Source: Anaerolineae bacterium
GTDB lineage: Bacteria; Chloroflexota; Anaerolineae; Aggregatilineales; JAFGMM01
NCBI GenBank assembly: GCA_027494055.1
Contig: JAOSJO010000012.1
Span: 682,001 to 746,000 of the forward strand
Direction of reading: 5' to 3'
Length of the DNA stretch: 64,000 bases
In this document: positions 55,184-63,686 of the stretch, one piece after another
How positions within the stretch are numbered: the stretch's first letter is position 1
Layout: every line of letters begins with the position of its first letter
Program-made: the position numbers and the translations under genes
The notes under the pieces: model-generated
Seen by the model: the letters and a program-made list of their open reading frames with translations, nothing else
Database searches by the model: none
Told to the model about the DNA's origin: nothing

Positions 55184-56711
55184 ATGGCGCAAGCGCCCAT
55201 CGTGCTCGGCATCGACGTAGGAACCACAGGCTGCAAAGTCGTCGTCGCGGAATACGCGGCCGGCGAGGTGAGGATACGCAGCGCCAGCGCCGCGCCCTAC
55301 GAAGTCCAGACGCCGCGCCCGTCATGGGCGGAGCAGGACGTGGAGGTGGTGTGGGCCGGCATGGTACGCGCGGTGCGTGACGCGCTCCACGCGGCGGCGG
55401 TCGATCCGGGGCGCGTGCAGGCGCTGAGCTTCAGCGGCGCGATGCACAGCCTGCTTGCCCTGGACGCAGACGGCCAGCCGCTCACGCCCGCGATCATCTG
55501 GGCGGACGCGCGCAGCGCCGGCCACGCCCGCCGCCTCCGCGCCGAGGCCGACGCTGCTGCGCTCTACCGGCGCACCGGCTGTCCGATTCACGCGATGTAT
55601 CCGCTCGCCAAGCTGCGGTGGCTCCGCCACGAGCAGCCGGAGGTCTTCGCCGCCGCGCACGCCTTCCTCAGCATCAAGGACTACCTGCTCTACCGGCTGA
55701 CAGGCCGCCTCCTCACCGATTACGCGATTGCCTCCAGCACGGGCTGCTTGGACCTGCGCAACCTGCGCTGGGACCCCGACGCCCTCGCGCTCGCGGGGGT
55801 CGCCGAGGGCCAACTGCCCGAACTGCGCCCGCCAGAAGCCCGCATCGAGGGCGGCCTGCGCCCCGAAGCCGCCGCAGCGCTGGGCGTCCCCGGCGACGTC
55901 ACGGTTGTGCTGGGCGGCAGCGATGGCGCGCTCGCGAACCTGGGCGCGGGCGCGGTGACGCCGGGCCGCGCGGCGCTCACCATAGGCAGCAGCGGCGCGC
56001 TACGGCTGGTCGGCGCGCAACCCGCCACCCACCCACACGAGTACACCTGGTGCTACCTCGTCACCGGCGGCGCTTACCTGATCGGCGGCGCGATCAACAA
56101 CGGCGGCATCGTGTTCGACTGGTTTCATGACACGTTCGCGCACGTCGAGGGCGAGCAAGGCGCAGGCCGCCGCGCTTCCGCCCGGCGCGGAGGGGCTGAT
56201 CTTCCTCCCCTACCTGAGCGGCGAGCGCTGCCCGCACTGGAACGCCGACGCGCGCGGCGTGGTCTTCGGCCTCTCGCTGCGCCACGGGCGCGCCCATTTC
56301 GTGCGCGCCATCATGGAAGGCGTCGCGTTTCGCATGTACAGCGTGTTCAACGCGCTCTCCGACCTCGCGGACATCCACGAAATCCGCGCTTCCGGCGGCT
56401 TCATCCGGTCGCCGCTGTGGCTGCAGATCGTCGCGGACGTCTTTGGCCGGCAGATCGTGCTCCCCGACACCCAGGAGATGTCGGCGATCGGCGCGGTGTT
56501 CATGGCGATGTACGCGCTGGGCATCGCGCCCTCGCTGGCGGCAACCGAGCGACTGGTGCGGGTTGGGGTTGGCGCGCAGCCCGACATGGCGCGCCACGCG
56601 CGTTACCGCGCCCTCTTCGCGCAGTTCGAGACGCTCTACGACCACCTGCGCCCGGACTTCGCCGCGCTGGCGGCGTTCCGCGCCGATGAGGCCGCCGCCG
56701 CGTCGCCATGA
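55184..56711 (+). CDS. FGGY-family carbohydrate kinase, gluconokinase-like (one frameshift)
   Basis: An ATP-dependent sugar kinase of about 508 residues. ATP/phosphate loops are LGIDVGTTGCKVVVAEY and LTIGSSGALRLVG; the substrate region SFSGAMHSLLALDADGQPL and IIWADARSAGHARRL resembles gluconate kinases (MHS) more than xylulokinases (MHG). The signature EGVAFRMYSVFNAL and ASGGFIRSPLWLQIVADVFG complete the C-terminal domain. One slip near 56150 splits the frame. Product would be 6-phosphogluconate if the substrate guess is right. Confidence 0.78.
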
Positions 56712-58401: not shown

Positions 58402-59410
58402 ATGGCAAATCAGGTGACAGCGGCGGCGCACCCCAACCTCGCACTGGTCAAGTACTGGGGCAACCGGGACGATGCGCTCAACCTCCCGATGAACAACTCA
58501 ATCGCCGTCAACCTCGGCGGCGCCACCACGACCACCTCCGTGACTTTCGACGACAACCTGCGCGCCGACGCCGTGACGATCAACGGGCGCGAAGTGCGCG
58601 GCGCAGGCTATGACCGGGTGGTCCGCCACCTCGACCGGGTGCGCGCGCTCGCCGGCATCGAGACGCGCGCCGCTGTCGCGTCGGAGAACGACTTCCCCGC
58701 GTCGGCGGGGGATTGCGTCGTCGGCGTCGGCGTTCGCCGCGCTCTCGCTCGCCGCGAGTAAGGCCGCCGGCCTGGCGCTCGACGCGGCGGCGCTCTCGCG
58801 GCTGGCCCGGCGCGGTTCCGGCTCGGCAAGCCGGTCGATCCCCGACGGGTGGACGGAATGGCTGGCCGGCGCGGACGACGCGACCTCTTACGCGGTGCAG
58901 ATCGCGCCGCCAGAGCACTGGGACCTGAGAATCACGACCGTGATCCTCGACACGGAGCCGAAGGAGATTGGCTCGTCAGAGGGGCACCGGCTGGCGCACA
59001 CCAGTCCGTTCTACGCCGCGCGCCAGGCCGAGCTGCCCCGCACGCTGGAGGCGGTCCGCCGGGGCCTGCTGGCGCGCGACTTCCGCACGATGGGCATGGC
59101 CGCCGAGCGCGAGGCGGTTTCGCTGCACGTGATCGGCATGACGTCGGTCGTGTCGGACCGCGCGTGGCTGAGCGGCGTCTACTACTGGGGGCCGGGCACG
59201 ATGCGCGTGATCCAGGCGTGCCAGGCGTGGCGGCGCGATGGCCTGGAGGTGTACTTCACCATCGACGCCGGCGCAAACGTGCACCTGCTCTGCGAGGGCG
59301 CGAACCAGCCGCAGCTTGAGGATGCGCTGGGCCGGCTGCTGGGCGCGCGCGGCGGGCGCACGATTGTGAGCGCGCCGGCGCGCGGCGCGTGGGTGGTGGA
59401 AACCGATTGA
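58402..59410 (+). CDS. mvaD: Mevalonate (di)phosphate decarboxylase (one frameshift)
   Basis: A GHMP-fold enzyme making isopentenyl (di)phosphate. Signatures are AHPNLALVKYWGNRDDALNL, MNNSIAVNL, the ATP loop ASSASAFAALSLAAS and the catalytic-Asp region FTIDAGANVHLLC. One slip near 58710 separates FPASAG from the ATP loop. About 335 residues. Some Chloroflexota (Roseiflexus) use the monophosphate in an alternative pathway, so the exact substrate is open. No other mevalonate gene is in the window. Confidence 0.82.
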
Positions 59411-59432
59411 ACCGCGACGCCCGTTGAGATTG

Positions 59433-59546
59433 GTGTCTGTTCATCTTTTGGTTCCCGCGACTAAAGTCGCGGGCTAATTCGTCTTCCTCCGTGTCATGTT
59501 CTGCGATTAACCGACGACTGCAGTCGTCGGGCCACGAAAAACACAC
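59433..59546 (-). repeat. Dispersed double-hairpin element, copy 3 (inverted)
   Basis: The 82-nt core 59450-59531, read on the minus strand, runs CCCGACGACTGCAGTCGTCG, GGTTAATCGCAGAA, GACGAATTAGCCC and CGCGACTTTAGTCGCGGG, the same length as copy 1. Two base pairs change together between copies (TAAA/TGCA, TTCA/TTTA centres), so pairing is kept. Non-coding space continues to 59852 with the promoter and leader RNA listed next. Confidence 0.8.
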
Positions 59547-59664
59547 TACAGCGTGATACTGAGCGTACGGGCTGAAGAAATGCTGAGATTGGGCGTCTTT
59601 GATCCAGTGTTAACCTTCCTCAATACTCCTTAATAGGACTTTTACCAATTCCATGAACGCCCCG

Positions 59665-59673
59665 TGCTATAAT
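59665..59673 (+). promoter_or_regulatory. Extended -10 promoter TGCTATAAT
   Basis: TG-C-TATAAT at 59665-59673 with no clear -35. Transcription would start near 59680, 173 nt ahead of the small ORF. Confidence 0.6.
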
Positions 59674-59679
59674 AACTAC

Positions 59680-59790
59680 AAATTTGGTCTTCTTATAAGG
59701 AACCCCAATACGGCGATAGGCAGCGAAGAAGCACACCGGCTGCCAGAGTAGCTCACGTGTCGAGCCAGGCCGTCTTGGGGTGTTTTTCTT
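59680..59790 (+). ncRNA. Candidate structured leader RNA (three-way junction plus U-run)
   Basis: P1 pairs 59702-59708 (ACCCCAA) with 59775-59781 and, after one mismatch, ACGGC (59710-59714) with GCCGT (59769-59773). P2 pairs GGCAGC (59719-59724) with GCTGCC (59739-59744). P3 pairs GCTC (59751-59754) with GAGC (59762-59765). Loop 2 holds ACAC and loop 3 GTGT, able to kiss. TGTTTTTCTT follows P1 directly. It may be a ligand-sensing attenuator of the protease operon or a free small RNA. It matches no riboswitch consensus I know. Confidence 0.5.
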
Positions 59791-59793
59791 CTG

Positions 59794-59809
59794 CGGCGGG
59801 GACCCGCCG
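59794..59809 (+). other. GC hairpin after the leader RNA
   Basis: CGGCGGGGACCCGCCG folds into a six- to seven-pair stem just 3' of the U-run and 30 nt before the Shine-Dalgarno of the small ORF. Confidence 0.4.
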
Positions 59810-59852
59810 GCACTGGTGTACAGCGCGCCGATCCATGAAGGGAGTTTCTTAC

Positions 59853-60074
59853 ATGGACATTGAAGCCACACTACGAAAACACGAGGACTTCTTGATGGGC
59901 CTGCCCAACGTCGTTGGCGTGGGCATTGGCGAGAGGGCTGGGAAGGAGGTGATAACCGTATTCGTGACGCATAAGGTGCCGGCCCACACGCTGGCAGCCG
60001 AAGAGATCGTCCCCAAGACGCTGGACGGTTACGAGACCGATGTCGAAGAGATAGGATACATCTCAGCACAATGA
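59853..60074 (+). CDS. Stand-alone protease N-terminal-domain protein, 73 aa
   Basis: ATG 59853 follows AAGGGAG at eight bases. The product MDIEATLRKHEDFLMGLPNV continues VGVGIGERAGKEVITVFVTH and ends in DGYETDVEEIGYISAQ. Its whole core aligns with residues about 37-95 of the protease encoded next (NVVGLGVGVKWSNG, QKVDEDMLRSADVIPSELGG, QTDVLAVGEL). It has no signal peptide. It may act as a free propeptide-like inhibitor or partner of the protease. Its stop TGA overlaps an in-frame ATG of the next gene (ATGA at 60071). Confidence 0.7.
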   Translation: MDIEATLRKHEDFLMGLPNVVGVGIGERAGKEVITVFVTHKVPAHTLAAEEIVPKTLDGYETDVEEIGYISAQ

Positions 60075-60112
60075 AAAAGAAACCACGACCGAGACGACAA
60101 GAGGAGACGACG

Positions 60113-61153
60113 ATGGGCGTTGACGATGCCAAGATGATGCTCGCCGAGGACAACGAGGCCGAAGCGATGGCCGCGCACGCCAAGGCGGTTGACGAGTTCC
60201 TTGACCCGGAGCATGTGCCGGCAAACGTCGTGGGCCTGGGCGTTGGCGTCAAGTGGTCGAACGGCCAGCCCACCGGCGAGCCGGCGGTGCTCGCCCTGGT
60301 GAGCCAGAAGGTCGATGAAGACATGCTCCGCTCCGCCGACGTGATCCCTTCCGAGCTTGGCGGCATGCAGACCGACGTGCTTGCCGTGGGCGAGCTCCTC
60401 GCCGGCGGCGAGCCGATAGACGCGGGCGTGCAGACGCTCCGGAACCGGATACGGCCGGCGGAAGGCGGCTACAGCGTGGGGCACATCAACATCACGGCGG
60501 GCACCATCGCCACCTGCGTGTACGCCATCCTTCCTGAAGCGGGCCGCTACAATCCGGGGATCGGCATCCCCAACCGGTACTTCATCCTGAGCAACAACCA
60601 CGTCCTCGCCAACAGCAACAACGCCAACCTGGGCGACCCGGTGCTGCAACCCGGCCCGTTCGACGGCGGCACCGACCCGGCGGACCGCATCGGCAGCCTT
60701 GCGGCGTTCGTCCCGATCACGTTCTGGCCGCCGGTCCCGCTCAACCAGCACCGCAACCTGGTAGACGCCGCCATCGCTACCGTCGAATTCCACGACGGCG
60801 ACCGCGAAATCTACTGGATCGGCTATGTGCGCGCCTGGATGCGCCGCAGCGAGGTCAAGGTCGGGATGCTGGTCCAGAAGACCGGGCGCACGACCAACTA
60901 CACCGTGGGACGGATCACGACGATTGCCGCGACGGTCAACGTGAACTACGGCGGCGGGCGGGTGGCCCGGTTCGTTGACCAGATCGTGACGACCAACATG
61001 TCCGCCGGCGGCGACTCCGGCTCGCTCGTCACCACGTTCGACAACGTGGCGGTGGGGTTGTTATTCGCCGGCTCGCCGAGCGCCACCATCCTCAACCAGA
61101 TCGAGCACGTGCGCCGCCTGCTGCGCGTAGAGGTTGCCGAAGAAGTGGTCTAG
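60113..61153 (+). CDS. Trypsin-like (chymotrypsin-fold) serine protease
   Basis: The catalytic triad is visible: His in FILSNNHVLANSN, Asp in HRNLVDAAIATVEF and Ser in SAGGDSGSLVTTFD. The first 100 residues form a separate domain shared with the small protein upstream. No signal peptide or membrane helix is seen, so it is probably cytoplasmic, unlike most members of the fold. I chose ATG 60113 because AGAGGAGA precedes it ideally; ATG 60071, coupled to the previous stop, would add 14 basic residues. 346 residues, intact. It converges on a glycosyltransferase gene. Confidence 0.8.
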   Translation: MGVDDAKMMLAEDNEAEAMAAHAKAVDEFLDPEHVPANVVGLGVGVKWSNGQPTGEPAVLALVSQKVDEDMLRSADVIPSELGGMQTDVLAVGELLAGGEPIDAGVQTLRNRIRPAEGGYSVGHINITAGTIATCVYAILPEAGRYNPGIGIPNRYFILSNNHVLANSNNANLGDPVLQPGPFDGGTDPADRIGSLAAFVPITFWPPVPLNQHRNLVDAAIATVEFHDGDREIYWIGYVRAWMRRSEVKVGMLVQKTGRTTNYTVGRITTIAATVNVNYGGGRVARFVDQIVTTNMSAGGDSGSLVTTFDNVAVGLLFAGSPSATILNQIEHVRRLLRVEVAEEVV

Positions 61154-61225
61154 TCGCGCCGCGAATCAATTGCGCGAGGGCTGCCGGGGTCGTCAGTTCG
61201 GGCGACTGTGGCAGCCCTGCATACA

Positions 61226-61302
61226 ATGGCGTTGGCGAAGCGCCCCTCTCCCCCATGCCTCTCCAGGGGTGAGGACGCAAATTATGAAATCGCCAACGCC
61301 AT
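61226..61302. other. 13-bp inverted repeat with inner hairpin between convergent genes
   Basis: ATGGCGTTGGCGA (61226-61238) is perfectly mirrored by TCGCCAACGCCAT (61290-61302); the loop carries CCCCTCTCC and GGGGTGAGG pieces like the element at 34.4 kb. It may act as a two-way terminator or be a mobile palindrome. Confidence 0.5.
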
Positions 61303-61305
61303 CGC

Positions 61306-63686
61306 TTACCTGTCCCTCCCCCTCTGCCCTCCAGCCACCAGTCCGTCTCCTCCGCCGTCGCGACCACGCGCAGGCGCGGCAGGTCGAGCGCGTCGCCCTC
61401 CCAGTGGCCGTCCGGTGCGATGATGGGCAACCGCCCGCCCCCGGCCTGGTCCATCCAGCCGACCTGCAGCAGGTAGAAGCCCGCCGCCGTCCCCGCCGGG
61501 AAGCGGATGCGCCGCTGGTCCTCGATGACCTCGCCCGGCGTCCACGTGCTGGGCAGGCTCATGCCCTGCTGCGGGTAGCCGTCGAAGCGCGCCGGTATCT
61601 CGCCGTCCGCGCCCACCGCCTGCAAGAACACGCGCAGGTCCTCCACCGCCTCGTCCTCCAGCGGGCGGAGCGCCTTCCAGTAGAACGTGACGTAGCTGTT
61701 GCGCCCTGGCTCCACCACGCGCGGGAAGATGTCGTAGCCGACGAGCGCAATCCGGTCGCCGAAGTTGAAGTAGAGCGGGTTGGGGATCACGTCCGGGTAC
61801 ATCTGCCCGTAGCCGTCGTAAGCCGGGATGTTCACCTGCCCCAGCACCGCCGCGTCGCCGTTCGCGTTGGGCGCGTCGCCGCGCACCGGCAGACGCGCGC
61901 CGCTCTCCCGGTCGAACAGCCCCACCTCGACGCGCAGCCAGTCCGGCGCGAAGGCGGTCGGCGGCACATCGACGCGATACGTCTCGACGAACGCGCGGCC
62001 CGGCTCCCAGAGCGTCGAGGGGTACGCGCCCAGGCCGGTGTAGGTCGCGCGCATCGCCACCGGGAGGTCGTACAGGCCGAGCAGGTGCACGAACACGCTC
62101 AGCGGCGCGTCGGTGCGCGCTAGCGGCTCCCAGTGCAGCGTCACGAACACGGGCGCGCCGGGCTGCACCGTGTCCGCGCTCAGTTCATACCCGCGCAGCC
62201 GCGCCACGTCGCCGAACGCCGCGTCGATGGCCCCGGCCGGCTGGGTGGCGGCGGTCGGCTCCGGGGGCGGCGTGTAGGCGGGCGCAAGGTAGCCGGCCAG
62301 CGCCCAGATCGCGCCCGCGCACAGGAGCGCGCTGACGAGCGCGGCGAGCGCGCGCGCTGCGCCCCGCCCCGGCCAGGGGAGCCGCGTCACAAGCGCCGCC
62401 AACCCCGCGAACACCAGCAGGCCGTAGGCCGGCAGGCCGGGGAAGTAGAAGCGCCCCATCGCGCCCGCCGGGCTGACCAGGATGTAGAAGAACAGCACCA
62501 ACGCCATCCCCACCGCCTGCGCGCCGAGCAGCGCCAGCGCGCCGACGTGCGTTCTGGCTTCCGGGAAGCTACGGCGGTCGCCCTGCGCAGGGCATAGAGC
62601 GCCAAGCCCACCAGACCGGCGACGCCGACAACCGCCATGAGCGTGTAGAGAGCGCCCGGCAGCGGAACCTGCCCGTAGCCGAAGCGGCCCCAGAGCGTGG
62701 TCCACGCGAAAGGCAGCTCCATGAGGGCGAGCGTCAGGCTCGCGCGCGGGTCGCGCACGCCCCAGATCTCGGTGACGCGCACGAAGCCGGTCGGCTCGCC
62801 GTAGAGCACGGCGTTGCGCACGAACCACCACCCACTCACCAGCGCCGCAACGCCGAGCACGATCCCCAGCGCGCGCAGCGCCTGCCGCCACGCGCGCCGC
62901 CGCCACGCCGCCAGCAGCAGCGCGAGCCCGATCACGCCGATCATCGGCAGCAGGTGTGTCTTCGTCAGCAGCGCCACGCCGTAGGCCAGCCCCAGCCATG
63001 CCGCGCGGCGGGCGTCCAGCCCGCGCGCAACCACGCGGACGCTCAGCAGCAACACCACCGCGCCGGCCGCGGCGGCGGGAACGTCGTTGTTGACCGCGCC
63101 GCTCAGGTAGAGGAACTGGGGGTTGAACGCGAGGAACGCCGTCCCGCCGACCGCTATCGCCCGGTTGCCGAACACCTCCAGGCCAATCAGGTACGTCGCC
63201 CACACCGCCGCCGCGCCCCACAGCGTGGTCACAAAGCGCGCCAGGTGCGACGCCAGCGCCGGCCCGCGCCAGGGGGAACGCCTCGTCGGGGCCGTGGAGG
63301 TACAGGTTCTTGTTGTCAACGCCGACTTCGAAATCGCGGTAGGCCCAATAGGGGTTAATTGGCGGCTCGGCGTCGAGGTCGGGCGTGGGCACCCAGAAAC
63401 TCGCCAGCGCCGCCGTGACGTAGTACAGCGGCGGGTGGTGCGCCTGGATGTTCGGCGCGACCAGCCGGTCCTGCGTCGGCAGCCGGCGCTCGTTGACCAG
63501 GTAGCGCACGAACCGGTAATGGCGCACCTCGTCCGTCGCTTCGTGGATCGGGTTCACGAGGCCATAGGCAAGCGCGAGCGCCAGGTAGCCCACCAGGACC
63601 GCCACGAACGCGGGGTGCGCCCTCACGGCCCCAACGAGACGACCGGCAAGCGAACGGCGCGCCATGCCCTCTGCTGGCGCGTTCAT
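61306..63686 (-). CDS. GT39-like glycosyltransferase with C-terminal beta domains (frameshifts)
   Basis: Starts MNAPAEGMARRSLAGRLVGA at 63686, overlapping the upstream stop by ATGA. The loop NPIHEATDEVRHYRFVRYLV carries the acidic GT-C site and HHPPLYYVTAALASFW is typical of PMT-like enzymes. The frame slips near 63275 and back near 62570; the middle reads FNPQFLYLSGAVNNDVPAAA. Two beta domains follow (FVTLHWEPLARTDAPLSVFV, VTFYWKALRPLEDEAVEDLR). Correcting a run of G near 61328 ends it at 61306; otherwise it runs into the protease gene. About 793 residues. Confidence 0.68.

Follow-up and report, generated by a model that had tools for sequence, protein, structure and literature searches.

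A promoter-like element and a predicted promoter-proximal terminator ahead of a NAL1-like protease operon in an Anaerolineae bacterium

In the window (the whole stretch of 64,000 nucleotides analysed here), a protease operon is preceded by a promoter-like element and, after it, by a long-range stem and T-run resembling a terminator, and we see about an even chance that this locus would yield a short RNA of ~110 nt, with only leaky read-through into the genes downstream. The best reading of the element is a lineage-specific promoter plus a promoter-proximal terminator. Since no convincing relative of the RNA was found, the short-RNA leader is probably a local, ordinary leader of the terminator type rather than a new riboswitch class; we class the element as an orphan, whether a leader of that type or a small RNA. 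The computations behind this reading concern the sequence elements, their fold energies, their rarity in shuffled sequences and their absence from the relatives examined, whereas promoter use, transcription start and termination are predicted.

Promoter-like element, stem and T-run

The letters and coordinates of the locus were re-read, and every element named in the first-pass annotation (a helix P1, the hairpins P2 and P3 with loops of 14 and 7 nt, a T-run and an extended -10) is present at the place given there (Table 1).

Table 1. Features of the leader region and of the operon behind it (window positions).
Feature	Position	Strand	Remarks
Extended -10 promoter element TGCTATAAT	59665..59673	+	exact; no recognisable -35; RNA start predicted near 59680
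Predicted RNA	59680..59790	+	~110 nt, ends in T-run; placed from promoter and terminator positions
P1 5' arm CCCCAAUACGGC	59703..59714	+	pair probabilities 0.89-1.0
P2 hairpin	59719..59744	+	GGCAGC 59719-59724 / GCUGCC 59739-59744; 6 bp; 14-nt loop with ACAC 59733-59736; -9.8 kcal/mol alone
Rival inner hairpin GGCUGC/GUAGCU (rod-like folds)	59738..59753	+	pair probability 0.84 once P1 made
P3 hairpin	59751..59765	+	GCUC 59751-59754 / GAGC 59762-59765; 4 bp; 7-nt loop with GUGU 59757-59760; -3.4 kcal/mol alone
P1 3' arm GCCGUCUUGGGG	59769..59780	+	ends 2 nt before T-run
T-run of predicted intrinsic terminator	59783..59787	+	sequence; T5
73-aa protein, weak NAL1_N-like match	59853..60074	+	Pfam PF25608, 19.8 bits against a cut-off of 27
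360-aa trypsin-like serine protease, NAL1_N-like N-terminal part	60071..61153	+	PF25608, 26.6 bits against a cut-off of 27

The motif TGNTATAAT occurs once in the window, as the extended -10 itself, and ten times in 400 kb of the same genome. Among the nine of these control sites that lie far enough from the end of their stretch to be scored, seven have the start of an open reading frame no more than 250 nt downstream; the same holds for 637 of 2000 random positions, in a test that is crude in a genome of 68% G+C. By this comparison TGNTATAAT behaves like a promoter motif in the window genome. At those seven sites 6-79 nt separate the -10 from the start codon; here the interval is 179 nt and includes the structured segment. 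The motif does not recur between the T-run and the operon. A two-hexamer sigma-70 scan of 59400-60100 reported no site either, but this silence before the operon is weak evidence, because the extended -10 was likewise missed by the same scan.

P1, described in the annotation as 12 bp with one mismatch, indeed consists of 11 pairs and one U.C mismatch (12 pairs over 13 positions if A59702-U59781 is counted) and directly adjoins TGTTTTTCTT. It is near-certain in the fold model, so that a stable stem is followed directly by a T-run, as in an intrinsic terminator. When 59680-59790 is folded, the minimum-energy structure pairs AAGGA (59697-59701), just 5' of the stem, to the U-rich tail, as in A-/U-tract terminators. 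The two arms are separated by 54 nt, and a terminator scan that admits only loops of 3-8 nt sees just a 5-bp stem (59765-59778) at the T-run. Over transcript lengths from 101 to 271 nt, P1 pairing reaches at least 0.99 at 12 of 13 lengths; the exception is 173 nt, with a pairing of 0.78 and a minimum-energy fold (-62.1) without P1, against -61.7 with P1 imposed.

The placement between an extended -10 and the protease operon thus stands as the sequence anatomy of a structured RNA with a terminator at its end, and a simple course of events can be proposed. Transcription would start near 59680 from the extended -10; the emerging RNA could form P2 and then P3; the 3' arm of P1 would subsequently pair with its 5' arm just before the T-run, producing an intrinsic terminator. 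The operon would be supplied by read-through; we infer this from the stretch between the T-run and the first start codon, in which the scans showed no further promoter-like site. This account requires neither a ligand nor a factor.

The same anatomy would also suit a gene for a free, trans-acting small RNA, its terminator standing by chance before an operon that is driven by another promoter, one missed by the scans. The extended -10, the length of ~110 nt and the terminator-like end make up a complete gene of this kind, and a comparable leader is absent from all six close relatives of the operon; against this, no convincing homolog was found, hence there is no sign of a conserved RNA gene, and no second promoter was seen before the operon, in a scan that also misses the extended -10. 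We regard a free small RNA as unlikely.

As a separate observation, several genes of the window appear, by eye, to be split over two overlapping frames, namely the decarboxylase, a kinase-like gene and a membrane-protein-like gene (within 58402-59410, 55184-56711 and 61092-63686), the decarboxylase being one frame of 332 aa in the family relative (genome G001). The splits look like assembly indel errors or recent frame breaks, and base-level errors of this sort could also touch the arms of P1 or the T-run.

Competing interior folds and the rarity of the stem

The annotation drew the RNA as a compact fold of three helices. Its closing helix holds, P1 being near-certain, whereas P2 and P3 are not the minimum-energy interior and account for only ~16% of the equilibrium ensemble, the remaining ~84% being folds with the rival inner hairpin. 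The two arrangements are nearly tied in energy, at -35.4 kcal/mol for the P2/P3 junction (with P1) and -36.0 for the rod-like fold, in a model that has no loop-loop contacts and therefore ignores them in this comparison. The loop sequences ACAC and GUGU are complementary, as had been pointed out. The contact had been put forward as a possible counterpart of that in purine riboswitches, but this complementarity loses its force as a sign of ligand binding, because the two tetramers can instead pair in an ordinary nested fold: in the rod-like minimum-energy structure they are nested around GGCUGC/GUAGCU, a pairing that takes 0.38 of the ensemble.

The balance depends on transcript length. In growing transcripts of 66-86 nt P2 leads (0.84-0.99; 0.98 at 66 nt and 0.93 at 86 nt) and then drops to 0.16 once P1 is made, while P3 goes from 0.52 at 86 nt to 0.16 in the full RNA. 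Formation of P1 hence shifts the interior away from P2/P3 along the transcript-length series, and the P2/P3 junction may be a kinetic intermediate. When the interior was shuffled, two hairpins of the P2/P3 type appeared in 38 of 2000 sequences and never (0/2000) with 4-nt complementary loops, in a test framed after the sequence had been seen.

These figures bear on whether the RNA could be a riboswitch-like attenuator, in which the P2/P3 junction with its ACAC/GUGU contact would stabilise or break P1 in response to a small molecule. The lead of P2 and P3 in the nascent RNA, before P1, is consistent with it, as is the loop complementarity unmatched in shuffles, framed after the fact though it was. 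Furthermore, GAAGAAGCACACC of the P2 loop is complementary to GGTGTTTTTCTTC, where P1 ends (59725-59737 with 59779-59791, 12 of 13 pairs), and the two could conceivably form an antiterminator, but complementarity of at least 12/13 arises in 274 of 5000 shuffles. Against the attenuator stand also the preference for the rival inner hairpin (0.84 to 0.16), the lack of any Rfam match, the lack of a convincing homolog and so of any covariation, and relatives of the gene pair that carry no leader. Ligand control is unsupported, with nothing positive beyond the architecture, and we judge such an attenuator very unlikely. Highly improbable, too, is a rare and narrowly distributed attenuator sensing a ligand or a protein, in which a three-way aptamer junction would close directly into the terminator stem and control a protease operon (trypsin-like, NAL1-type) that had come from other phyla.

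The stem itself is less exceptional than the combination in which it occurs. When the intergenic region (59411-59852) was dinucleotide-shuffled, 2 of 2000 sequences reached the score of P1 plus T-run. In a scan of both strands, stems scoring 14 or more numbered three in the window and eight in 400 kb of the same genome; four of those eight reach the P1 score of 17 or exceed it (20, 18, 17 and 17), without a promoter-like word. A long-range stem before a T-run alone is therefore not unique, and such stems also occur by themselves. Within the 464 kb scanned, only P1 has an extended -10-like word (TGNTANNNT) at most 70 nt upstream. The fold energy of 59679-59790 corresponds to z -2.03 (7 of 200 shuffles as good), and that of the whole 188-nt stretch to z -0.70 (46 of 200 as good), with a minimum-energy fold lacking P1.

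Also to be weighed is an inverted repeat of chance origin, or a decayed one, in a patch of lower G+C and never transcribed as a unit. The intergenic region and the RNA have 51-52% G+C in a window of 68%, which makes T-runs and -10-like words easier to come by; the 188-nt fold is unremarkable, and stems of equal score are found elsewhere in the genome. That shuffles preserving composition reach the P1 score so seldom, and that the extended -10 is exact and correctly placed, argue the other way, and we hold a chance repeat to be decidedly improbable.

Relatives of the RNA and of the operon

At the gathering cut-off, no Rfam family, the purine riboswitch (RF00167) included, matched anywhere in the window, in agreement with the earlier remark that the sequence fits no known class. 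With E values up to 10, three sub-threshold matches were obtained in 59400-60100, of which one covers the RNA (SgrS, on the other strand, with 11 bits against 37). A sub-threshold Acido-Lenti-1 match (22.9 bits against 37) includes the first of two short palindromes, at 59454-59473 (CCCGCGACTAAAGTCGCGGG) and 59511-59530 (CCGACGACTGCAGTCGTCGG), which resemble REP-type repeats. A tRNA-like origin was rejected, the only tRNA that ARAGORN finds in the window being a tRNA-Leu at 1229-1311.

DNA homology within the window's own family (2 genomes) returned the window itself as the only real match, the other four being stretches of 16-26 nt with E values of 0.18-0.7. Plasmid and phage collections held no match to the RNA, and an exact 22-mer was found in none of the viral contigs. 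A covariance model of the single sequence (R1) was run on overlapping samples of the order (154 genomes), class (396) and phylum (400), and gave no convincing homolog in any of them, samples of more than 40 genomes being searched with stricter filters that may miss weak homologs. R1 found one copy in its own genome at E ≤ 10.

In the order, R1 matched at E ≤ 1 in 22 of 154 genomes, at 23 places in all, the window's own included. Of the 22 places besides the window's own, ten were aligned; the other twelve are L050-L061 (E 0.41-0.90). None of the ten was retained as a homolog: the best match (L041 in genome G005, E 1.7e-4) is part of a decamer array, and L062, from the same genome, aligns without a T-run; L043 keeps TTTTT with three P1 pairs broken and L048 keeps TTTT with four broken; in L042, L044, L045, L046, L047 and L049 the aligned tail has no T-run (L047 being aligned over positions 10-71 only). 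Several of the matches in the order look, by eye, like coding sequence. At E ≤ 0.05, and again counting the window's own, R1 matched in 4 of 396 genomes of the class and 3 of 400 of the phylum; of the five other matches, four lack a T-run in the tail and L188 covers only the P2/P3 part.

The array containing L041 belongs to a group of repeats built from a degenerate 10-nt unit, RRCAGCNAAR, which were seen in genomes G003, G004 and G005 (about 1460-1730 of locus L065, from contig C64 of G004, as well as L131, L132, L134 and L137). In the stretches read, the units are often followed by their own reverse complement and stand after a stop codon or between genes; such arrays could fold into very long hairpins. 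A pattern of three units has 168, 105 and 19 overlapping matches in three genomes of one genus, and none in the reversed control. That the RNA is a distant member of these arrays, as the position of the best covariance match and two decamer-like units in the window (ACGGCGATAG and GCAGCGAAGA) might suggest, is largely refuted and extremely improbable, the three-unit pattern being absent from the window genome and from 151 of the 154 genomes of the order, with all three exceptions in genus g4.

The operon has a different distribution. Its 360-aa protease matches 1hpg, a glutamic acid specific protease (E 5.7e-5), and H177, D232 and S316, invariant among 14 aligned proteins (the protease and 13 chosen relatives of 65-73% identity), would form the catalytic triad. 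Related loci number 18, the closest in records of Blastocatellia, Methylococcales, Calidithermus, Acidobacteria and Methylomirabilota. Since the closest relatives are thus in other phyla, and since the protease passes E 1e-60 in the window only within the sample of its own phylum (1/400), horizontal acquisition of the gene pair is suggested. More distant proteases, at E 1e-10, occur in 104 of the 154 genomes of the order, the window genome included. All six close loci from other phyla (L093, L094, L095, L096, L098 and L102) have the same two-gene unit, in which the gene for a ~73-aa NAL1_N-like protein precedes that for a trypsin-type protease, an arrangement suggesting that the two proteins work together and move horizontally. 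Both the RNA and the operon are missing behind the decarboxylase gene of G001, where a convergent gene comes next after ~85 nt.

The leader does not follow the genes. Within the 700 nt before the first gene, none of the six close loci has a comparable stem and T-run, the best scores being 10 in L093, 8 in L094, 7 in L096, 12 in L098 and 11 in L102, with none in L095, against 17 in the window. R1 gave a single match on the 18 related loci, at E 2.4 and downstream of the gene (L103). Neither set points to a conserved leader of the NAL1-like protease operon; the homologs keep the genes without the pairing, the very pattern that the first-pass annotation had set against its proposal, and its suggestion of a ligand-binding class is unsupported, for want of an Rfam match or a convincing homolog. 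Similarly, none of 29 oriented loci of more distant proteases in the order has a long-range stem (L013 offering only 226 nt of upstream DNA); two exceed the stem threshold, both with short local hairpins (L019 and L037). The element appears to be specific to the lineage of the window genome and, as a single copy without homologs, is no evidence of selection.

A second NAL1-like protease locus in the same assembly (1215-1355 of L008, from contig C13 of G000) has a perfect 13-bp long-range stem, TGTGGGGGCCGAA / TTCGGCCCCCACA, which encloses a predicted three-way fold (z -1.74), is followed by CGGGTTTTT and lies ~160 nt upstream of the protease gene. With a score of 22 it outranks every stem in the 464 kb scanned, where the top score is 20. 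This stem speaks for a leader-type structure at such protease genes; as a second member of the present leader it is doubtful, given no sequence similarity by eye, the lack of a long-range stem at all 29 other protease loci of the order, and a contig of 9.9 kb on which the protease match is broken into separate pieces.

Comparison with known systems

The locus illustrates that a three-way junction drawn convincingly from one sequence may turn out to be a leader of the terminator type that is not conserved and has a competing fold; it also offers a concrete case for 3'-end mapping. Were the leader regulated, a bacterial NAL1-like protease operon would be under RNA control, an arrangement of which we know no description.

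Purine riboswitches (RF00167) have a three-helix junction architecture with complementary P2 and P3 loops. The present RNA resembles them in the drawing of its junction, in its complementary P2 and P3 loops and in having a terminator adjacent; it differs in having no Rfam match, in a P1 that doubles as the terminator stem, in a preference for a rival interior fold and in the protease operon downstream. Chloroflexi-1 RNA (Rfam RF01698) is a candidate structured RNA listed for Chloroflexus aggregans (PMC2864571), presumably of the same phylum as the window genome, and is set apart from the RNA described here by the absence of an Rfam match in the window. From intrinsic (Rho-independent) terminators and leader attenuators the locus differs in its arms 54 nt apart and its structured interior, with termination and read-through being predicted and any regulation hypothetical; in common with them it has a G+C-rich stem that ends 2 nt before a T-run, an A/G-rich tract 5' of that stem, and a placement between a promoter-like element and an operon.
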